Notes under the pieces: generated by a model
The model's database searches: none
The model's input: only the letters and a program-made list of their open reading frames with translations
Told to the model about the DNA's origin: nothing
Part shown: one piece after another, positions 1-13,897 of the stretch
How positions within the stretch are numbered: the first letter of the stretch is position 1
Layout: every line of letters starts with the position of its first letter
Made by a program: the position numbers and the translations under genes
NCBI GenBank assembly: GCA_004213215.1
Contig: SHAO01000002.1
Coordinates: 1 to 54,055 of the forward strand
Direction: 5' to 3'
DNA: 54,055 nt
DNA from: Candidatus Pelagibacterales bacterium
Lineage (GTDB): Bacteria; Pseudomonadota; Alphaproteobacteria; Pelagibacterales; Pelagibacteraceae

Positions 1-539
1 GCTTGTTCTAAAACTAACTTAGCATCAACTACTTCTATACCAGCTTTATTTAAAGCTGACACAGCAGGACCATTTACAACATCGATCGCTAATTTTTTAT
101 TTTTAAAATAAGAGTTAGATAAATCTTTTATCTCAGTAACCCATTTTTCTAATTGAATTCCAGCCTGATCTCCATTACTGAAATAATCCCAAGTTATTGC
201 TGGTCTTATTTCATCAATTAGATTTAAGTGGTTAGATAATCCTTCGCAATTAAAATATTCATAGAGAATTACAGGTCCGTCAACAGGCACAAAACAATAC
301 CTAGTTAAATTGTGCATATTATAAACACTCATATTAACAGTGTCTAATGCATATCTAACATTTACAGGGTCAAACAATATACAAGCTTCGAGATTATTTT
401 TTTCTAGTTCTTTTTTAACTCTATCTAACCTATACGATCTAAGTTTAGTAAAATTTATTTCATCTTCTTTTAATCTTTTCTTTGTTATGAAGTTGGAAAG
501 AGGTTTTGTGTCTGGAGATATTTTTCTTTTAAATTTCAT
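1..539 (-). CDS. M24-family (creatinase/prolidase-like) protein, DddP-like, 3' end cut by window
   Basis: Partial gene, 179 codons visible, starting with ATG one base after the Rieske gene's stop and running off the left edge. It is not in the ORF track. The visible part is the N-terminal creatinase-like domain; the stretch FDPVNVRYALDTVNM closely resembles, from memory, the corresponding region of the DMSP lyase DddP (FDPLNIRYATDSTNM). DddP is an M24-fold protein that cleaves dimethylsulfoniopropionate to DMS and acrylate, but relatives include prolidases, creatinase and ectoine hydrolases. The catalytic C-terminal pita-bread domain, which would decide, lies outside the window. Tight coupling to the oxygenase suggests a shared pathway. 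Family assignment is fairly secure; DMSP lyase activity is inference only. Confidence 0.7.
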   Translation of the reverse strand, partial: MKFKRKISPDTKPLSNFITKKRLKEDEINFTKLRSYRLDRVKKELEKNNLEACILFDPVNVRYALDTVNMSVYNMHNLTRYCFVPVDGPVILYEYFNCEGLSNHLNLIDEIRPAITWDYFSNGDQAGIQLEKWVTEIKDLSNSYFKNKKLAIDVVNGPAVSALNKAGIEVVDAKLVLEQ

Positions 540-540
540 A

Positions 541-1737
541 TTAAACTAAATTTGTTGCTATCCATTTATGAAAATGATGAGTTGGATTATCCATTACAGG
601 TGAAAAATTTCCCCCATTATAAGATGGTGAATTTCTTCCTTCTTGCATTCCTTCAATAATACCAACATCTTCTGATTGTACTCCATGCCAAAGTTTTAAA
701 TTTTGTTTTCGCAAATTTTTTAATTTTTTTGAATTTGCAGCTACATTTCCTACATAATAAATTTCCATATGTTCTATCGTTAATTCGTGGCTAACTGGCT
801 CCAACCAATAAGCATAATAGTGATCTTTATGAATTCCTAGCATCACATTTGGAAAGAGCGCTACATATTCAGCTACATGAAATTTATCTTTAGGCCAATT
901 AGGAAAGCATGGAAATTTAAGCTTACCTTTTAATCTTGGGTTATAAACAGTAGTACCCTGTCCAGCAAATCTATTAGGTAAACCTTCTATATGATAATGA
1001 TCACTAATTTTAGAATAAGAATTTAATCCTGGGTGTACCCATGGAAGATGATAACTTTCACAATAGTTTTCAATTGCAAATTTCCAATTACATTTTGCGG
1101 TTAATTTAAAATAACCAAAGTCTTTAGAATGTCGAATTAGTTGCTGATCTTTTTTTGGCCAAAACTTAGACCAACGATCTTGTAATGGCTTAATATATTG
1201 TTCAAAAGGAATTTCGTTATTAGAAATATTTATTATAATCATGTCTAACCAAACATAGGAACGAACTTCTTTAAGCCCACTAGCAGATTTATTAAAATCT
1301 TTTGAATTATGTTTGTTCATCCCACCTAAATGAGGAGTAGCTACTAGTTTTCCTTCAAGATTATAGGACCAAGAGTGATAAGGACATCTTAATACATTTT
1401 TAATAGAACATTTTTTTTGTAAAATTTTGTAACCTCTATGACTACACACATTATGATATACTTTAATTTTATTACTTTTAGTTCTTAATAAAATTAGAGG
1501 AATACCGAGAAGATCGAATGGTTTAGCATCACCAGCCTTAGGAATTGAGCTTGCAACGCCGACAACCACCCATTTATCTTGGAATATTTTCTTTCTTTCA
1601 ATATTGGTGTATTCTTTATTATTATAGCATTCATTGGGAAGCCCATGAGCTTTACTTATGGGTTTGTTTACAACGTCTAATTTTTCCTTTTTTACAACGT
1701 CATAAATATTTCTGTGACCATTAAGCTTAGAAGTCAT
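541..1737 (-). CDS. Rieske non-heme iron oxygenase, alpha subunit
   Basis: A 398-residue aromatic-ring-hydroxylating-type oxygenase. The Rieske 2Fe-2S motif is visible as C98-x-H100 and C118-x2-H121 (NVCSHRG ... RCPYHSW). The mononuclear iron site is seen in ENYCESYHLPWVHP, with H230 and H235 as likely ligands and an acidic third ligand expected in the C-terminal part. Relatives include glycine betaine, carnitine and stachydrine monooxygenases that oxidatively N-demethylate quaternary amines, as well as true ring dioxygenases. No reductase gene is adjacent. It is divergent from the MTHFR-like and GcvT-like demethylase genes and directly upstream of the M24 gene, so a demethylating role on a methylated osmolyte is likely. 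The substrate cannot be read from sequence. Confidence 0.88.
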   Translation of the reverse strand: MTSKLNGHRNIYDVVKKEKLDVVNKPISKAHGLPNECYNNKEYTNIERKKIFQDKWVVVGVASSIPKAGDAKPFDLLGIPLILLRTKSNKIKVYHNVCSHRGYKILQKKCSIKNVLRCPYHSWSYNLEGKLVATPHLGGMNKHNSKDFNKSASGLKEVRSYVWLDMIIINISNNEIPFEQYIKPLQDRWSKFWPKKDQQLIRHSKDFGYFKLTAKCNWKFAIENYCESYHLPWVHPGLNSYSKISDHYHIEGLPNRFAGQGTTVYNPRLKGKLKFPCFPNWPKDKFHVAEYVALFPNVMLGIHKDHYYAYWLEPVSHELTIEHMEIYYVGNVAANSKKLKNLRKQNLKLWHGVQSEDVGIIEGMQEGRNSPSYNGGNFSPVMDNPTHHFHKWIATNLV

Positions 1738-1742
1738 ATTAA
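1714..1742 (+). promoter_or_regulatory. Possible promoter for the MTHFR-like leader
   Basis: GTGACC, a 17-base spacer and TATTAA match sigma70 boxes at 4 of 6 positions each. They lie inside the start of the divergent Rieske gene. Transcription from here would begin near 1750, exactly at the 5' end of the long stem described next. The match is weak on its own; position is the main argument. Confidence 0.3.
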
Positions 1743-1751
1743 AACCCTAAC

Positions 1752-1829
1752 ATTTTCGGGAAAATAGGCAACAAATTTGAAACAAAATTGCTGGACATCA
1801 TCTGGTGTTCGCTGATATATCCCGAAGAT
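1752..1829 (+). promoter_or_regulatory. Structured 5' leader, candidate riboswitch (three-way junction)
   Basis: The 93-base gap between the divergent genes holds a nested structure on the plus strand. P1 is a 10-bp stem, 1752-1761 with 1820-1829 (ATTTTCGGGA / TCCCGAAGAT, one G-U). P2 is GGCAA 1767-1771 with TTGCT 1788-1792. P3 is a 7-bp hairpin, GGACATC 1793-1799 with GGTGTTC 1804-1810, around ATCT. P2 and P3 abut, giving a three-way junction. P1 ends one base before the ATG at 1831, so folding would hide the initiation region. At least four G-U pairs occur, which would become A-C mismatches on the other strand, favouring a plus-strand RNA over a DNA operator. It does not match a riboswitch class I recognise. 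Ligand unknown. Confidence 0.5.
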
Positions 1830-1830
1830 T

Positions 1831-2559
1831 ATGAATTTTTCTTTAGAGATAGGACTCAAAACTGACCTCAGCACTCTGCCTAATATTAAAGATATTTATA
1901 TAACGCTTTTAAGAGGGGACCAATATAAAGATGTAGCTAACAAAGCTAAAGAATTAGTAAATCTTGGGAAGAACCCAGTTCCACACTTTCCAGCTAGATC
2001 AATTAAAGATCAAAATGAGCTTAAGGATTATGTAAATATGTGTAAAGATTTTGGCGTAAAACAAGCTCTTATAATTGGAGGAGGAGCTCAACCTGTTGGA
2101 GATTTTCACTGTTCACTTCAATTATTTGAGACAGGTTTGTTCGAAGGCTTCAAGATAGGAATTGCTGGACATCCAGAGGGTTCCCCTGATATATCCGACT
2201 CAGATTTAGAAAAAGCTATGATAGATAAGAAACCATACGCAGATTATATAGTTACGCAATGGCTAATGGAAACTTCTCCAATAGTAGATTTTATTTCTAA
2301 ACAAAGTTTACCAGTACATGTAGGGATAGCTGGGCCCGCCAAAATTACAAGCTTACTTAAGTTTGCTAGTATTGTTGGGGCAAAAAATTCTCTTAACTTT
2401 TTAAAATCAAACGCAAGTAAAGCAGTTGATTTATTTAAACCAAGAAAACCAGACGATATGATTGAAAAAATAAAAAGCGTTTCTCAAAATTTTCATATTT
2501 ATACATTTGGTGGACTTAATGAAACAAACAAATGGTTATCGGAGAACAACTATGCCTAA
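1831..2559 (+). CDS. Methylenetetrahydrofolate reductase-like protein (short MetF family)
   Basis: A 242-residue TIM-barrel protein of the MTHFR superfamily, shorter than classical MetF (about 290-300). Visible hallmarks are VPHFPAR (residues about 50-56), the GGGAQPVGDF loop and GIAGHPEGSPD. In this family the enzyme interconverts 5-methyl- and 5,10-methylene-tetrahydrofolate using flavin. The GcvT-like demethylase gene begins inside its last codons (8-base overlap), so the natural reading is that it takes methyl-THF made by that enzyme and oxidises it for C1 catabolism. The leader is structured and may control translation. The short form may lack part of the NADH/flavin-binding surface; activity is inferred. 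Confidence 0.8.
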   Translation: MNFSLEIGLKTDLSTLPNIKDIYITLLRGDQYKDVANKAKELVNLGKNPVPHFPARSIKDQNELKDYVNMCKDFGVKQALIIGGGAQPVGDFHCSLQLFETGLFEGFKIGIAGHPEGSPDISDSDLEKAMIDKKPYADYIVTQWLMETSPIVDFISKQSLPVHVGIAGPAKITSLLKFASIVGAKNSLNFLKSNASKAVDLFKPRKPDDMIEKIKSVSQNFHIYTFGGLNETNKWLSENNYA

Positions 2560-3994
2560 AAAAAAGAAAAAATCTAAAAAGAAAAAATCTAAAAAAATTA
2601 AAGCAAAAAAAATTAAATCAGTTTCTTTTAAGCCTGAAAAAGTCGATTATAGTAAAGTTAGACACGAAACATCTGTCGATCAATCAGACAGACATGTTCC
2701 CTATAACTTAAGACAAAGTGGACCTACAAAAGTTGAAATGCTAATTTCAACAAGAGTGAGAAAATCACCTTATTGGCACCTCTCAATGAAAGCAGGTTGC
2801 TGGAGAGCTACAGTTTATAATCGTATTTATCATCCTCGTGGGTATGTAAGACCTGAAAAAGGCGGAGCGATGGTCGAGTATGCAGCTATTAAAAATCATG
2901 TAACAATGTGGAACGTTGCTGTTGAAAGACAAATTCGTGTTAAGGGACCTGACGCTGAAAAATTTACTGATTATGTAATAACACGTGATGCAACTAAAAT
3001 TTCAACAATGAGAGGACGTTATGTTATTCTTTGCAATAATAAAGGTGGAGTATTAAATGATCCAGTTTTATTAAGAGTTGCTGACGATGAATTTTGGTTT
3101 AGTTTATCTGATTCTGATATTGGGATGTATATGCAGGGTGTAAACGCAGACAAAAGATTCAATGTTGAAATTGATGAAATTGACGCTTGTCCCGTACAAA
3201 TTCAAGGTCCTAAATCAAAAGCATTAATGAATGATTTAATTGGAGATCAAGTTGATCTAGACAATATGCCATTCTACGGTTTAGCTGAAGCTAAAGTTGG
3301 AGGAAGAAGTTGTGTAATTTCACAATCTGGCTTCTCTGGTGAAGCTGGATATGAAATTTATCTTCGCAACGCAACTTTGTATGCTGAAGATATGTGGAAT
3401 GCTGTACTTAAAGCAGGAAAAAAACATAAGCTAATGGTTATTGCTCCCGCACACCATAGAAGAATCCAAGCAGGAATATTGTCTTGGGGTCAAGACATGG
3501 ATAATGAGCATAATCCTTTTCAATGTAATTTAGGTTATCAAGTTTCATTGTCTGGAAAAGGTGAATGGAATAAACAAACTGATTATGTAGGTAAAGAAGC
3601 TCTAGAGAAAATGAAAGATCAAATTGGTAATGGTAAAAATCCATATAAGTTGCAACTAGTTGGTTTAGAATTGGGAGGAAAACCTGTTGAGGAATATGCT
3701 CCTGACTTTTGGCTAATATCTGACGCTAAAGGCGGGAAACCAGTTGGTTATATTACTTCACCTTGGTATCACCCTGAAAAAAAACAAAATATTGCTATGG
3801 GTTATGTACCTTACGAAGGGCATAAAAATGCTAAAGGTTTTCCAATTGGAAATTTTGGTAAAAAATACAAAGTTCATTTGCCAAAAAAATATGCTAGCAA
3901 ACCAGTTGATGCAAAAGTTGTTCCAGTGCCGTTTACACAATCTTTTAATGCTAATACGCGTGAGGCAGAAGTTTTGGCTACTCTAAATAAATAA
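2552..3994 (+). CDS. GcvT/DmdA/LigM-type folate-dependent demethylase with lysine-rich N-terminus
   Basis: A 480-residue aminomethyltransferase-fold protein. The ORF track starts at 2507, but the ATG at 2552 preceded by GGAG is the better start and overlaps the MTHFR-like gene by 8 bases. The body has the GcvT layout (VEYAAIKNHVTMWNV, QIQGPKSKALM, SGFSGEAGYEIY, then a C-terminal domain). Characterised relatives remove methyl groups to THF: DmdA from DMSP (about 365 aa), LigM from vanillate (about 470 aa). Length is nearer LigM, so it is not DmdA itself. The first about 30 residues are almost only lysine, serine and isoleucine (MPKKKKKSKKKKSKK), absent from usual relatives. Substrate unknown. 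Confidence 0.85.
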   Translation: MPKKKKKSKKKKSKKIKAKKIKSVSFKPEKVDYSKVRHETSVDQSDRHVPYNLRQSGPTKVEMLISTRVRKSPYWHLSMKAGCWRATVYNRIYHPRGYVRPEKGGAMVEYAAIKNHVTMWNVAVERQIRVKGPDAEKFTDYVITRDATKISTMRGRYVILCNNKGGVLNDPVLLRVADDEFWFSLSDSDIGMYMQGVNADKRFNVEIDEIDACPVQIQGPKSKALMNDLIGDQVDLDNMPFYGLAEAKVGGRSCVISQSGFSGEAGYEIYLRNATLYAEDMWNAVLKAGKKHKLMVIAPAHHRRIQAGILSWGQDMDNEHNPFQCNLGYQVSLSGKGEWNKQTDYVGKEALEKMKDQIGNGKNPYKLQLVGLELGGKPVEEYAPDFWLISDAKGGKPVGYITSPWYHPEKKQNIAMGYVPYEGHKNAKGFPIGNFGKKYKVHLPKKYASKPVDAKVVPVPFTQSFNANTREAEVLATLNK

Positions 3995-8133: not shown

Positions 8134-10566
8134 ATGAAATCAAAAGCCAAAGTAGTCGTAATTGGAGGAGGGGTGGTCGGAGTTAGTATGCTCTACCATT
8201 TAGCAAAAAAAGGCTGGTCTGATGTTGTTTGCGTTGAAAGAAAAGAGTTAACTTCTGGATCAACATGGCATGCAGCGGGATTGTTGCCTCTATTCAACAT
8301 GAGTTATTCTGTAGGACAGTTACATAAGTATGCTGTTGATTTTTATAAAACTTTAGAAAAAGAAACAGGAAAAAGTGTTGGGTTTAGTGTGGTTTCAAAT
8401 ATTCGTTTGGCAAGCACAAAAGATAGAATGGATGAATATCATCAATATGCTGGAGTAGCTAAAACAATTGGCGTTGATGTAAAATTTTTAACGCCTAAAC
8501 AAGTAAAAGAGATTTGGCCTTTATGTAATGTCGAAGACTTGGTGGGTGCAATACAGCATCCTGAGGATGGATATATTCAACCAGCAGATTTAACGCAGGC
8601 TTTAGCCGCAGGCGCTAGAAATAGAGGAGCAGAAATTTATAGAAACACAACAGTAATAGGAATTAAACAAACAAAAAATGGCTGGGTCGTAGAAACCGAT
8701 AAAGGTACTATTGAATGCGAACATGTTGTTTCGTGTACTGGAAATTTTGCTAGACAAACTGGTAAAATGGTTGGTCTTGAAATTCCAGCAATTCCAGTAG
8801 AGCATCAATATATAGTTACAGAACCCCACCCCGAAATTCAAAAAAGAAAGAAGGATGGTTTACCAGAAATGGGCGTTCTTAGAGATAGTGATAGTAGATG
8901 GTATATGCGAGAAGAAGCTGGAGGATTAATTTTAGGTCCATATGAAGACGGTGCACCATGCTGTTATGTTGATGGTCCTTCAAAAGATTCAGAATATGAA
9001 TTATTTCAAGAAGATCTAGATAGACTTGCTCCACATATAGAAGGAGCTATTCATCGCGTTCCTGCTTTTGGTGAAGTAGGAGTTAAAAAAGTTTATAATG
9101 GAGCTATTTGTTATACACCAGATGGAAATCCAATTGTGGGCCCCGCTTGGGGTTTAAAAAATTTTTGGATCAATGAAGGACATAGTTTTGGTATTACTGC
9201 AGCAGGTGGAGCAGGCTGGCAACTTGCTGAATGGATAGTTGATGGTGAACCAACAGTTGATATGCTTGGTGTTGAGCCGAGAAGGTATGGAGATTATGCA
9301 ACCAAATCTTACTTAAAAGAAAAAAATGAAGAAGCATATAACCATGTATTTAAAGTCCATTACCCAGATGAAGAAAGGGGAGCTGCTAGAGAATTAAGAA
9401 CTTCGCCTTGTTATGATAGAATGAAAAGTCTAGGTGCAGTTTTTGGTCAAAAATTTGGCTGGGAGAGACCAAACTTTTTTGCAGTTGATGGAATGGAACA
9501 AAAAGACGATTGGTCTTTTAGAAGATCTAAATGGTTTAAAGCAATAGAAAAAGAGTGCAAAAATGTTAGAGAAAATGTTGGGTTATTAGATATGACAGCA
9601 TTTGCTAAATGTAGAATAAAAGGACCAGGAGCCGAAAATTTTTTAGATTATTTAGTAGCTAATAAACTTCCTAAAAAAATAGGAAGAATAGGTTTATGTC
9701 ATGCTCTAAACACAAAAGGAGGAGTTCACTCTGAATTTACAATCATGAGGGAAGATGAAGATAGTTTTTATTTAGTTTCTGCAGGAGCAAATCAAAGATT
9801 AGATCATGATTGGATTAATAAATGGATGCCAAAAGATGGAAGTGTTCAATTTGAAAATTTAACTAACTCAGTAGGTGTTTTAGTTATATCAGGCCCAAAG
9901 GCTAGAGAGTTAATCTCGAGAGTTTCAAAAGATGATTTTTCAAATGATAATTTTAAATGGTTAAGTGCAAAAAATATAAATGTTGGAAACGCACCAGTTA
10001 ATGCAATGAGAGTAAATTTTGTAGGTGAACTAGGATGGGAATTACATCATCCAATTGAATACCAAAATCATATTTTTGATAAATTAATAGAAGCTGGAAA
10101 AGATTTGGGACTCAAACCTTATGGGATTAGAGCTATGAATAGTTTAAGGCTTGAAAAATCTTATAAATTGGTTGGAACTGAACTATCAATTGAATATTCC
10201 CCTTATGAATCTGGATTAGATAGATTTATTCATCCGAATAAAGGAAATTTTATAGGATTAGAGGCTTTAAATAGATGGAGAGAAAAAGGTTTTAACAATA
10301 AATTAGTAACTCTAGAAATTCATGACGTAAAAGATGCAGATGTATTAGGAAATAATCCAATTTACGATAATGGAAAAGTTGTTGGAAGAGCAACAGGAGG
10401 AGATTTTGGTTTTAGATTAAGTAAATCAATAGCTCTAGGAATGGTTAAACCAGAGATTGCGACAACAGGTCAAAAATTGAAAATTGATATTCTTGGTAAA
10501 ATGTATGATGTTACTGTTTTAGAAGAGAGTCCTTATGATCCAGAAAATAAATTATTAAGAGCTTAA
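8134..10566 (+). CDS. Dimethylglycine/sarcosine dehydrogenase-type FAD-GcvT fusion
   Basis: An 810-residue two-part enzyme. Residues about 6-26 hold the FAD-binding GGGVVGVSMLYHLAKKG; STWHAAG near residue 50 contains the histidine that carries covalent FAD in mammalian dimethylglycine and sarcosine dehydrogenases. The C-terminal half is a GcvT fold (VGLLDMTAFAKCRIKGPGAE, GELGWELHHP) that passes the released one-carbon unit to THF. Such enzymes oxidatively demethylate N-methylated glycines and give electrons to ETF, and the next three genes are exactly EtfB, EtfA and ETF-QO, the first overlapping by one base. Dimethylglycine versus sarcosine or another N-methyl amine cannot be decided from sequence. 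Confidence 0.9.
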   Translation: MKSKAKVVVIGGGVVGVSMLYHLAKKGWSDVVCVERKELTSGSTWHAAGLLPLFNMSYSVGQLHKYAVDFYKTLEKETGKSVGFSVVSNIRLASTKDRMDEYHQYAGVAKTIGVDVKFLTPKQVKEIWPLCNVEDLVGAIQHPEDGYIQPADLTQALAAGARNRGAEIYRNTTVIGIKQTKNGWVVETDKGTIECEHVVSCTGNFARQTGKMVGLEIPAIPVEHQYIVTEPHPEIQKRKKDGLPEMGVLRDSDSRWYMREEAGGLILGPYEDGAPCCYVDGPSKDSEYELFQEDLDRLAPHIEGAIHRVPAFGEVGVKKVYNGAICYTPDGNPIVGPAWGLKNFWINEGHSFGITAAGGAGWQLAEWIVDGEPTVDMLGVEPRRYGDYATKSYLKEKNEEAYNHVFKVHYPDEERGAARELRTSPCYDRMKSLGAVFGQKFGWERPNFFAVDGMEQKDDWSFRRSKWFKAIEKECKNVRENVGLLDMTAFAKCRIKGPGAENFLDYLVANKLPKKIGRIGLCHALNTKGGVHSEFTIMREDEDSFYLVSAGANQRLDHDWINKWMPKDGSVQFENLTNSVGVLVISGPKARELISRVSKDDFSNDNFKWLSAKNINVGNAPVNAMRVNFVGELGWELHHPIEYQNHIFDKLIEAGKDLGLKPYGIRAMNSLRLEKSYKLVGTELSIEYSPYESGLDRFIHPNKGNFIGLEALNRWREKGFNNKLVTLEIHDVKDADVLGNNPIYDNGKVVGRATGGDFGFRLSKSIALGMVKPEIATTGQKLKIDILGKMYDVTVLEESPYDPENKLLRA

Positions 10567-11315
10567 TGAAAATTTTAGTTGCTGTTAAAAGAGTCATTGA
10601 TTACAACGTCCAAATCAGGGTTAAAGAAGATGGTACAGGCGTTCACACAGATAATGTCAAAATGTCAACAAATCCACCGGATGATAATGCTATTGAGGAA
10701 GCAGTAAAGTTAAAAGAATCTGGTAAAGTAAAAGAAATCGTTGCTGTTACAGTTGGAGAAGAAAAAGCACAGGAAACAGTTAGAAAAGCTTTAGCTGTAG
10801 GTGCTGATAGAGGAATTCATGTTAAAGCAGATAGTTATATTGAACCTCTAGGCATTGCAAAAATTTTAAAAAAAGTTGTAGAAAAAGAAAAGCCAGATAT
10901 GGTTTTTTTAGGCAAACAGGCTATTGATGATGATTGTAATCAAACAGGTCAAATGTTAGCTGCTATTTTGAATTGGCCGCAGGGAACTTTCACATCTAAA
11001 ATTAATCTAAAAGAAAAAACTGTGGAGATAGTAAGAGAAATTGACGAGGGTTTAGAAACTTTAGAAATAAATCTACCCGCAGTAATTACTTGCGATTTAA
11101 GACTTAATGAACCTCGTTTTGCTTCTTTACCGAATATTATGAAAGCAAAGAAAAAACCTATAGACCAAATGATTGCAAAAGATTTAGGAATAGATATTAA
11201 AAATAGAATCCAACAATTAAAAGTAGAAGAGCCACCTAAGAGAAAAAGCGGAATTAAAGTTTCAAGCGTGGCAGAATTAGTAAGCAAACTTAAAAATGAA
11301 GCAAAGGTAATATAA
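10566..11315 (+). CDS. etfB: Electron transfer flavoprotein, beta subunit
   Basis: 249 residues, the normal length. Visible features are the N-terminal KILVAVKRVIDYNV, the NPPDDNAIEEAVKLKE block, LGKQAIDDDCNQTGQM and the ADLGI-equivalent loop KDLGID. With EtfA it carries one FAD and shuttles electrons from dehydrogenases to ETF-ubiquinone oxidoreductase. It overlaps the upstream dehydrogenase and the downstream etfA by one base each, so expression is tightly coupled to the methylamine-oxidising enzyme. Confidence 0.96.
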   Translation: MKILVAVKRVIDYNVQIRVKEDGTGVHTDNVKMSTNPPDDNAIEEAVKLKESGKVKEIVAVTVGEEKAQETVRKALAVGADRGIHVKADSYIEPLGIAKILKKVVEKEKPDMVFLGKQAIDDDCNQTGQMLAAILNWPQGTFTSKINLKEKTVEIVREIDEGLETLEINLPAVITCDLRLNEPRFASLPNIMKAKKKPIDQMIAKDLGIDIKNRIQQLKVEEPPKRKSGIKVSSVAELVSKLKNEAKVI

Positions 11316-12268
11316 TGTCAGTCTTATTAGTAGCAGAACATGATAATTCAAATTTAAAGGCGTTCACTTTAAATGCTATTAGCGCAGCTTCGAAAATAAA
11401 TAATGATATTCATGTTTTAGTTGCTGGATTTGAATGTGATAACGTTTCAAAAGAAGTAGCATCAATTCCATTAGTAAAAAAAGTTTTACTTTGTGACTCA
11501 CAGAATTATAAAAATTATTTGCCAGAAAATTTAGCTCCATTAATAACTAAAGTTTCAGAAAAATATGATCACATTGTTGCATCAGCAAATACCTTTGGAA
11601 AAAATTTTATGCCAAGAGTGGCAGCTGCATTAGATGTATCTCAAATAAGTGATGTTATTAAGGTTAATGATTCGGAAACTTTTCTCAGACCTGTTTACGC
11701 TGGAAATGCTTTTGCTACAGTTAAAAGTAATGATAAAAAGAAATGTGTAACTATTAGACCAACTTCTTTTGATCCTGCTCCCAAAACAGGAGGATCGGCA
11801 CAAGTTGAAAAAATAGAAGCAGTAGCCGTACCAAATATTTCAAAATTTATTAAAAGAGAAGAGACAAAATCAGAAAGACCAGAACTAGGAACTGCTCGTA
11901 TCGTTATATCTGGCGGAAGGGGCATGCAAAGTGGAGAGAATTTTAAACTTATTAATTCAATAGCCGATAAATTAAATGCAGCAGTAGGTGCTTCAAGAGC
12001 AGCAGTTGATGCCGGCTATATTGGAAATGACCATCAAGTAGGTCAAACTGGAAAAGTGGTAGTGCCAGATTTGTATATTGCAGTTGGAATCTCAGGCGCA
12101 ATTCAACATTTAGCTGGCATGAAGGAGAGTAAAATTATTGTCGCAATTAACAAAGACGGTGAAGCACCCATTTTTAGTGTTGCGGATTATGGGTTAGAAG
12201 CAGATTTATTTACAGCACTACCAGAATTTTTATCTGAACTGAACAAACTGAATACTATCCAAAAATAA
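11315..12268 (+). CDS. etfA: Electron transfer flavoprotein, alpha subunit
   Basis: 317 residues. The FAD-binding C-terminal domain shows the family signature: SGGRGMQSGENF, GASRAAVDAGY, QVGQTGKVV, PDLYIAVGISGAIQHLAGM and AINKDGEAPIFSVADYGL. It forms the heterodimer with EtfB encoded just upstream and carries the redox-active FAD. The ETF-QO gene follows 21 bases later, completing the chain to quinone. Confidence 0.96.
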   Translation: MSVLLVAEHDNSNLKAFTLNAISAASKINNDIHVLVAGFECDNVSKEVASIPLVKKVLLCDSQNYKNYLPENLAPLITKVSEKYDHIVASANTFGKNFMPRVAAALDVSQISDVIKVNDSETFLRPVYAGNAFATVKSNDKKKCVTIRPTSFDPAPKTGGSAQVEKIEAVAVPNISKFIKREETKSERPELGTARIVISGGRGMQSGENFKLINSIADKLNAAVGASRAAVDAGYIGNDHQVGQTGKVVVPDLYIAVGISGAIQHLAGMKESKIIVAINKDGEAPIFSVADYGLEADLFTALPEFLSELNKLNTIQK

Positions 12269-12289
12269 TTAGTTTGATATAGTCTTTCC

Positions 12290-13897
12290 ATGGCTAGAGA
12301 GGCAATGGAATATGATGTAGTAATTGTTGGTGCAGGACCAGCCGGTTTATCAACAGCTATAAAGCTTAAAAAACTTGATTCTAATCTAAATGTCTGTGTC
12401 CTTGAAAAAGGATCGGAAGTTGGTGCTCATATTTTAAGTGGAAATGTTTTTGAAACCAAAGCTCTTGATGAACTATTGCCTAATTGGAATAATGAAGGAT
12501 CTCCTATAAAAACAAAAGTTTCAAGGGAAAAATTCTTATTTTTAGGAAAAAACTCTTCTTTGAGTTGGCCAACATGGCTTTTACCTTCAGTGCAAAAAAA
12601 TCATAAAAATTATATTATCAGCCTTGCTAATCTTTGTCGTTGGTTAGCCGAACAAGCTGAAAAGCTAGGTGTTGAAATATTTCCAGGTTTTCCAGCAAGC
12701 GAAGTTCTTTATAATGAAGATGGATCAGTAAAAGGTGTAGCCACTTTAGACATGGGGTTAGATAAAGAAGGTAATAAAAAAGACACCTATCAAGAAGGAA
12801 TGGAACTACATGCCAAAGTTACAGTTTTTTCAGAAGGTTGTAGAGGTCATTTAGGAAAACAATTAATTAAAAAATTTAATCTTGATGAAGGAAAAAACCC
12901 TCAACAATATGGCATCGGTTTTAAGGAAATTTGGGAGGTAAGTGAAGAACAGCATCAAGAAGGAATGATTATGCATACCATAGGCTGGCCCCTTGATAAT
13001 AAAACTTACGGAGGTAGTTTTATATATCATGCAGAAAATAAACAAATTTATTTTGGGTATGTGGTTGGTCTTGATTATAAAAATCCATACCTTTCTCCTT
13101 TTGATGAATTTCAAAGATTTAAAACACATAAAGCTATTCGCAAAATATTAGAAGGTGGAAAACGTATCGCTTTTGGTGCTAGAGCTTTGATTGAAGGTGG
13201 TATACAAAGTTTACCTAAAATGTTTATGCCTGGAGCATTATTAATTGGTTGTGATGCTGGGACTTTAAATATGCCAAAAATCAAAGGTTCACATACAGCA
13301 ATGAAAAGTGGGATAGTTGCAGCAGAAGCAATTTTTGAAAATATAAAAAATAAAGCAGATTTATCAATTTATGAAAAAAAATTTAAAGAAAGCTGGGCTT
13401 ATAAAGAATTATATGCTGCAAGAAATGTAAAACCCAGTTTTAGTTGGGGCTTAATTCTTGGAATTATTTTTACTGGAATTGATCAAATTTTATTTAGAGG
13501 TAAATTACCTTTTACATTAAAACATAAACATGCTGATCACAAATCTTTGAAAACAGCTAACCAAATGCCTAAAATAGAATACCCCAAACCTGATGGTAAA
13601 CTTACTTTTGATAAAACTAGCTCAGTTTATTTAACAGGAACAAATCATACGGAAAACCAACCTGTTCATCTAAAACTTAAGGATCCCAACTTACCAATTA
13701 ATTATACATTAAAAGAATATGACGAACCTGCACAAAGATATTGTCCAGTAGGAGTTTATGAAATTCAACAAGATAAATTTGTAATTAATTCACAAAACTG
13801 CATTCATTGCAAAACTTGTGACATTAAAGAACCATCACAAAATATAACTTGGGTATCCCCTGAAGGAGGAGGAGGACCAAAGTATGGCAACATGTAG
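12290..13897 (+). CDS. Electron transfer flavoprotein-ubiquinone oxidoreductase
   Basis: 535 residues, matching ETF-QO/ETFDH. N-terminal FAD motif VVIVGAGPAGLSTAIKL; membrane-facing central region; C-terminal 4Fe-4S binding cysteines in RYCPVGVYE and CIHCKTCDIKEP, with the typical ending GGGGPKYGNM. It accepts electrons from reduced ETF at the inner membrane and passes them to ubiquinone. A start five codons further in (MEYDVV) is possible; I kept the first ATG. It closes the dehydrogenase-ETF operon and is convergent with the DUF2237 gene four bases away. Confidence 0.96.
   Translation: MAREAMEYDVVIVGAGPAGLSTAIKLKKLDSNLNVCVLEKGSEVGAHILSGNVFETKALDELLPNWNNEGSPIKTKVSREKFLFLGKNSSLSWPTWLLPSVQKNHKNYIISLANLCRWLAEQAEKLGVEIFPGFPASEVLYNEDGSVKGVATLDMGLDKEGNKKDTYQEGMELHAKVTVFSEGCRGHLGKQLIKKFNLDEGKNPQQYGIGFKEIWEVSEEQHQEGMIMHTIGWPLDNKTYGGSFIYHAENKQIYFGYVVGLDYKNPYLSPFDEFQRFKTHKAIRKILEGGKRIAFGARALIEGGIQSLPKMFMPGALLIGCDAGTLNMPKIKGSHTAMKSGIVAAEAIFENIKNKADLSIYEKKFKESWAYKELYAARNVKPSFSWGLILGIIFTGIDQILFRGKLPFTLKHKHADHKSLKTANQMPKIEYPKPDGKLTFDKTSSVYLTGTNHTENQPVHLKLKDPNLPINYTLKEYDEPAQRYCPVGVYEIQQDKFVINSQNCIHCKTCDIKEPSQNITWVSPEGGGGPKYGNM

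Follow-up and report, generated by a model that had tools for sequence, protein, structure and literature searches.

Positions 1 to 3,994 of contig SHAO01000002.1 of Candidatus Pelagibacterales bacterium (assembly GCA_004213215.1), analysed here as a stretch of 54,055 nucleotides (the window), seemingly contain two divergently transcribed gene units with a promoter region between them. One is a core pair, metF-AMT, encoding a short MetF-like protein and a GcvT/DmdA-superfamily aminomethyltransferase (AMT), and the other is an accessory operon encoding a Rieske oxygenase and an M24 protein. In the best explanation, to which as a whole a probability of about 0.5 can be assigned, the AMT would demethylate glycine betaine, the MetF-like protein would oxidise the transferred methyl group, and the accessory operon would provide a further quaternary-ammonium route. 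The more specific proposal that AMTs of the SAR11_1265 type are a previously unrecognised tetrahydrofolate (THF)-dependent enzyme for glycine betaine demethylation is put forward tentatively, at somewhat less than even odds; such an enzyme would be the nitrogen equivalent of DmdA, belonging to the SAR11 core and occurring, apparently through transfer, in haloarchaea as well. The first base of the window is also the first base of its contig; the genome (0.98 Mb) is 78% complete, and its relatives are Pelagibacteraceae. The features considered are listed below.

3-539, minus strand: N-terminal fragment (179 aa) of a DddP-like M24 "pita-bread" protein, gene 2 of the accessory operon
541-1737, minus strand: alpha subunit of a Rieske non-haem iron oxygenase (398 aa; Pfam PF00355 and PF00848), gene 1 of the accessory operon
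1738-1830, no strand: divergent intergenic region (93 bp), examined by conservation comparison
1831-2559, plus strand: short MetF-like protein (242 aa; match to PDB 7xg9), putative SAR11_1264 orthologue
2552-3994, plus strand: AMT of the GcvT/DmdA superfamily (480 aa; PF01571 and PF08669), putative SAR11_1265 orthologue
8134-10566, plus strand: FAD-GcvT fusion of the dimethylglycine/sarcosine dehydrogenase type (DMGDH-like)
10566-11315, plus strand: electron transfer flavoprotein (ETF) subunit, beta type
11315-12268, plus strand: ETF alpha subunit
12290-13897, plus strand: ETF-ubiquinone oxidoreductase (ETF-QO), proposed electron outlet for the dehydrogenase

The sequence-only reading had described four genes packed together with overlaps on each strand. 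All four genes were identified, and the metF and AMT reading frames share 8 bp; however, the oxygenase and M24 genes do not overlap, being separated by a 1-bp gap, and the M24 gene is only a fragment truncated by the contig end (full-length orthologues have approximately 411 aa). The DMGDH-like gene together with the ETF and ETF-QO genes (8134-13897) is located within the window, 4 kb from the AMT gene.

The MetF-like protein matched PDB 7xg9 (5,10-methylene-THF reductase, MTHFR) at 6e-34; it gave no match in the Pfam search and scored 24 bits against the NCBIfam cut-off of 310 for classical MetF. As for the AMT, DmdA is the closest of the named families (NCBIfam PRK12486, 244 bits, cut-off 410; PDB 3tfh, 4e-44), and the scores with the GcvT families were 160 and 135 bits (cut-offs 300 and 236). 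LigM-like O-demethylation was rejected, since the LigM score was 32 bits with a cut-off of 580; the "LigM length" noted earlier for this protein comes from a Lys-rich N-terminal tail of approximately 30 residues, which is missing in genus g3. Such tails (2552-2650 in the window) vary in length, as seen at the AMT starts in loci L040, L042, L049, and L088; they were found in the genus of the source genome and in related genera (g6), the remainder of the enzyme being very conserved.

A strong AMT or DmdA-type match was present in 176 of 197 Pelagibacterales genomes, and metF directly precedes AMT in every complete Pelagibacterales locus compared, with or without the oxygenase. The metF-AMT pair is an invariant core pair of Pelagibacterales (SAR11), which are the most abundant bacteria in the ocean. 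Judging from the protein family and the pairing, the two genes are probably orthologues of SAR11_1264 and SAR11_1265, with which they share adjacency and core status. SAR11_1265 was annotated as a probable AMT of unknown substrate and was guessed to take the second methyl group of dimethylsulfoniopropionate (DMSP) (Sun et al., 2011, PMC3160333). Transcripts of both genes drop together 5-10-fold in the stationary phase of HTCC1062 (PMC5069961). Whereas the earlier guess concerned a DMSP intermediate, the neighbouring genes and the co-occurrence described below would indicate glycine betaine.

In the maximum-likelihood tree, the AMT sequences of Pelagibacterales, scattered Alphaproteobacteria, and six haloarchaea formed a clade with 100/100 support. 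This clade is located next to but outside DmdA (represented by 3tfh, the DmdA encoded on contig C45 of the same genome, and that of genome G500), apart from GcvT and LigM, and far from the DMGDH domains. The AMT resembles DmdA in the THF-binding Glu/Tyr motif GYExY, and the principle proposed to be shared by both is the transfer of a methyl group from an onium compound to THF. It differs from DmdA in its separate clade, on account of which DmdA identity was rejected, in a score under the family cut-off, in its betaine-related neighbours, and in Phe at the position of the DMSP-specific Trp (W171 of DmdA; PMC7487153). Phe occurs in all AMT rows in which the motif was found; the DmdA of G500 has Tyr, so this marker is not strict. 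The haloarchaeal sequences nest among the alphaproteobacterial ones, which suggests gene transfer. Outside Pelagibacterales, AMT matches with at least 50% identity were found in 11 of the sampled alphaproteobacterial genomes only, and the family is therefore patchy there. In the same tree, a GcvT-like family of Alphaproteobacteria (about 380 aa; motif TGWSSELGYE; L268-L276, L279, and L280) was sister to DmdA.

The neighbourhoods of AMT genes outside SAR11 point to betaine metabolism. In Haloarcula marismortui, AMT, MTHFR, two DMGDH-like FAD oxidoreductases, a Rieske oxygenase, threonine ammonia-lyase, and a BCCT transporter are encoded within approximately 16 kb, with dihydropteroate synthase and formate-THF ligase just outside. 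On all six haloarchaeal plasmids AMT is located near MTHFR, and five of them encode one or two DMGDH-like FAD oxidoreductases; mostly folP, formate-THF ligase, folD, glyA, ilvA, or a BCCT transporter gene is added, in varying sets. This gene set reads as a putative path from betaine through glycine and serine to pyruvate. Dimethylglycine-oxidase-like genes near BCCT transporters have been connected with possible betaine catabolism in haloarchaea, AMT not being named in the part of that paper concerned with these genes (PMC3102087). In the alphaproteobacterial AMT loci, a DMGDH-like gene was found within 9 kb in 7 of 11 cases and sarcosine-oxidase genes in 5 of 11; in genomes G426 and G653 the gene order is sox-DMGDH-metF-AMT.

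In addition, the co-occurrence of AMT with the DMGDH-like gene of the window was analysed across 143 genomes of the family. Both genes were present in 110 genomes and neither in 25, with 8 discordant genomes (Fisher p = 8e-20, a value inflated by shared ancestry); the negatives were partly listed by name, the others being deduced from absence in the positive list. A better test is the split within genus g6, where 4 genomes have both genes and 12 have neither, and where the two genes lie on different contigs.

From the computed orthology, synteny, separate clades, and co-occurrence we infer the catalytic steps, the choice of glycine betaine, and the direction of the MetF reaction. The proximity of AMT to MTHFR suggests that the product is 5-methyl-THF and hence that, as with DmdA, an onium compound gives up its methyl group without net redox change; the proximity to DMGDH, sarcosine oxidase, and betaine transporter genes suggests glycine betaine as the donor. 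The AMT would thus charge THF with one methyl group from a trimethylammonium betaine, glycine betaine being the likeliest, yielding dimethylglycine and 5-methyl-THF. The short MetF would re-oxidise 5-methyl-THF to 5,10-methylene-THF for energy or biosynthesis, and dimethylglycine would pass to the FAD-GcvT dehydrogenase with its ETF and ETF-QO. The sequence-only reading had proposed demethylation with methyl transfer to folate, which is supported. Betaine, one of the candidate substrates it named, is retained, most evidence pointing to N-betaines; DMSP and arsenic or sulfonium compounds found little support.

The presumed substrate and product of AMT are the same as those of BHMT, GbcAB, and MtgBCD (PMC12478193), but these systems use homocysteine, oxygen, or cobalamin, while AMT would use folate directly. 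BHMT ties the first demethylation of betaine to methionine synthesis; AMT would be an outlet to one-carbon (C1) oxidation. No account of a folate-dependent betaine demethylase was found in the literature covered by the analysis. If the proposal is true, the AMT route explains how the first methyl group of betaine can be oxidised beyond the capacity of BHMT-dependent methionine synthesis, uncouples betaine demethylation from methionine demand, and supplies a marker gene for betaine respiration. A core pair of SAR11 genes, open since 2011 and with a testable orthologue in culturable haloarchaea, would thereby receive a function.

As for the accessory unit, the oxygenase was found in 179 of 397 Pelagibacterales genomes. 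In 58 of the 61 genomes in which both genes were placed, its distance to AMT is at most 10 kb, and M24 directly follows it in 11 of the 13 nearest loci. Together with the constant adjacency of metF and AMT, this comparison across Pelagibacterales shows that the clustering is not due to chance; the genes are kept together in relatives, and they do not each group firmly with enzymes of unrelated pathways. The single pathway suggested by the sequence-only reading survives in part: the genes are kept close, but the metF-AMT core also occurs in genomes without the oxygenase, and oxygenase-M24 is a separate, divergent accessory operon running past the contig end. In relatives, the further genes of the operon encode a HalD-family 2-oxoglutarate enzyme, or two of them, with an HxD motif of the hydroxylase type, as well as a class II aldolase, a carnitine-dehydrogenase-like protein, and an FrhB-like flavoprotein, not all of which are present in each locus; the operon frequently adjoins OpuAB/OpuAC, BHMT-like, and second DMGDH-like genes. 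FrhB, the only operon gene searched for, was not found in the 78% complete source genome. The island of genus g3 often holds OpuAB/OpuAC, BHMT-like, and DMGDH-like genes and a small methyltransferase gene. A sister genome of the window (L117) has BHMT-like, DMGDH-like, OpuAC, OpuAB, and aldehyde dehydrogenase (ALDH) genes on the far side, and locus L041 contains OpuAC, permease, and GFA genes.

The 93-bp region between the two units is 84% conserved among the nearest relatives. Many Pelagibacterales, including ones without the oxygenase, repeat its metF-proximal block ahead of their own metF gene, and by eye this block looks like a promoter; the promoter consensus scan of this block gave no call. 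A riboswitch upstream of metF was rejected, as Rfam gave no match and the conserved block is promoter-like.

The structures nearest to the oxygenase in PDB are CntA, then 3n0q and Stc2 (quaternary-ammonium or uncharacterised relatives), and its score with NCBIfam GbcA (glycine betaine monooxygenase) was 121 bits against a cut-off of 670. In the oxygenase tree, the SAR11 proteins and those of Alphaproteobacteria, Acinetobacter, Pseudomonas, Oceanisphaera, and Cupriavidus formed one clade, which is marked by the signature ENYCE(S/A)YHLP (ENYCESYH in the window protein) and excludes CntA and Stc2. The bridging Glu between the Rieske and mononuclear iron sites is kept in all 44 aligned rows. The Cys-X-X-Cys pair beside the iron site, described for CntA/Stc2 and present in some Group V members (PMC10952381), is absent; Ser and Leu replace Cys206 and Cys209 in the window protein, and Ser/Ala and Leu do so in the clade. 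The oxygenase shares with Group V CntA/Stc2 the fold, the bridging Glu, the nearest structures, and betaine contexts, but differs from them in its own clade and in this pair. Another oxygenase of this clade, in G500 (L202:8082-14100), has a genuine dmdA (577 bits) and an acuI-like gene at a distance of about 4 kb. A compact cluster of BCCT/LysR, Rieske oxygenase, ALDH, FAD reductase, DAO, and EutQ/cupin genes was found in Acinetobacter, Cupriavidus, Oceanisphaera, and Pseudomonas plasmid records (L242, L253, L252, and L244). The source genome encodes a second, distant Rieske oxygenase (34-36% identical) on contig C50 (L235:5163-7644), divergent from a 468-aa protein weakly similar to it.

The M24 protein belongs closest to DddP, its best NCBIfam family, with 358 bits for the full-length orthologue and 98 for the window fragment. 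The full-length orthologue shares with DddP (PDB 4rzy and 4b28) the fold, the metal ligands, and the catalytic Asp (aligned as FDTD...D, HG...DE, E, E), which the truncated window copy does not show. That M24 is the DMSP lyase DddP, as this likeness might suggest, is nevertheless very improbable, and this identity was rejected: the scores lie below the cut-off of 600 bits, and in the tree the SAR11 and f32 proteins formed a clade apart from both DddP structures and from the acuI-linked proteins. In addition, M24 is surrounded by betaine genes, and next to the SAR11 copies acrylate genes were not observed. The C-S cleavage proposed in the sequence-only reading is therefore left unsupported. The phylogenetic comparison that it suggested places AMT, the oxygenase, and M24 each in a clade of its own, apart from DmdA, CntA/Stc2, and DddP, respectively.

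In Rhizobium, Paraburkholderia, Caballeronia, Pseudomonas, and Oceanisphaera, related M24 genes adjoin genes for Rieske oxygenases, which fall into two different clades. In one Rhizobium locus (L250), M24 is accompanied by 4-hydroxyproline epimerase, betaine ABC transporter, DAO, ALDH, and DHDPS-type genes, and in another (L249) by formaldehyde-detoxification genes; in Parasedimentitalea it stands beside DMGDH-like, MttB-like, and sarcosine-oxidase genes. More generally, oxygenase/M24 loci elsewhere (Rhizobium, Paraburkholderia, Pseudomonas, Oceanisphaera, and others) include BCCT, Opu, DMGDH, 4-hydroxyproline epimerase, or formaldehyde-detoxification genes. The oxygenase and M24 clades thus turn up repeatedly, in many cases jointly, among the betaine clusters of Alpha-, Beta-, and Gammaproteobacteria, and these neighbourhoods suggest that M24 regularly accompanies betaine demethylation, although any role of M24 is deduced from its context. 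No account of such clusters was found in the literature covered. The operon would oxidatively dismantle a further quaternary-ammonium compound and feed the same C1/dimethylglycine pool, and betaine catabolism would gain two enzyme clades of unassigned function, one of Rieske oxygenases and one of M24 proteins. Glycine betaine, a proline-type betaine, a carnitine-type compound, and homarine are candidate substrates.

Several points weigh against the proposed functions. Enzymes of the AMT and oxygenase clades are known from sequence only, and 4 of the 11 AMT loci outside SAR11 show no betaine genes. The DMGDH-like gene occurs without AMT in 5 genomes and AMT without the DMGDH-like gene in 3; in genus g3 the two genes are close together, so that a single deletion or a contig absent from the assembly might account for part of their joint loss. 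The DMGDH neighbours are also compatible with other betaines yielding dimethylglycine. M24 is missing from several SAR11 oxygenase operons and is therefore dispensable. The first methyl group of glycine betaine has already been assigned to SAR11 BHMT (PMC3160333), an attribution made without experimental proof (PMC12478193). According to the haloarchaeal study, growth of H. walsbyi was not enhanced by betaine and H. utahensis was unable to grow on it (PMC3102087). The substrate suggested by Sun et al. in 2011, with AMT converting methylmercaptopropionate (MMPA) to mercaptopropionate as the second demethylation in DMSP catabolism, has in its favour this published suggestion for SAR11_1265 (PMC3160333) and the closeness of AMT to DmdA in family score and PDB match. 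It is nonetheless quite improbable, as the AMT clade is separate from DmdA and the AMT genes outside SAR11 adjoin DMGDH, sarcosine oxidase, and BCCT genes, not dmd genes. Moreover, MMPA is a thioether and a poor methyl donor, and haloarchaea are not known to demethylate DMSP.

The accessory operon admits other readings. It may be the SAR11 version of a homarine pathway, in which the oxygenase would act first on homarine or a different N-methylpyridinium compound rather than on an aliphatic betaine; PMC13390433 cites a 2026 publication on a homarine pathway conserved among environmental bacteria. The compact LysR-associated clusters with oxygenase orthologues described above could be a candidate homarine operon, and the orthologue in genome G605 adjoins genes read from the sequence as a luciferase-like monooxygenase and ALDH. 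This reading is unlikely, since the SAR11 operon has no DAO and cupin genes and its neighbours are Opu, BHMT, and DMGDH, and since M24 accompanies Stc2-type oxygenases in hydroxyproline-betaine clusters. Degradation of gamma-butyrobetaine, carnitine, or trimethyllysine to glycine betaine or trimethylamine through the 2-oxoglutarate hydroxylases, aldolase, aldehyde dehydrogenase, and carnitine dehydrogenase seems distinctly unlikely. An L-carnitine-dehydrogenase-like gene (345 bits, cut-off 414), two HalD-family enzymes with the HxD motif, a BADH-like ALDH, and CntA as the nearest structure of the oxygenase speak for it; however, the carnitine-dehydrogenase-like gene is absent or replaced by a HIBADH-like gene in some loci, and the later genes of the operon lie past the contig end, with FrhB, the only one searched for, not found in the incomplete source genome. 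The trimethyllysine route uses a pyridoxal-phosphate-type aldolase, whereas the aldolase of the operon is class II. That the two halves are merely co-located, as a variable island beside a conserved pair and functionally unlinked, is doubtful but less so: each half occurs without the other, and ergothioneine, kinase/nucleotidyltransferase, and other genes also fill the site. Against this, methyl or betaine genes are what is inserted time and again, and the betaine cluster of Haloarcula likewise combines AMT, MTHFR, and a Rieske oxygenase. Co-location, if so, would not change the reading of either half.

Among other genes found at this site beside metF-AMT are those of the ergothioneine type, EgtB/EgtD (L125:7277-9456, L115:6962-9096, L037:5728-6633, and L085:6704-7588); in L037 the position of M24 is occupied by an EgtD equivalog. 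Small APS-kinase-like and NMN-adenylyltransferase-like proteins are also encoded as a pair at the site (L136:8739-9149 and 11466-11840; L098:7667-8453), with or without the oxygenase.

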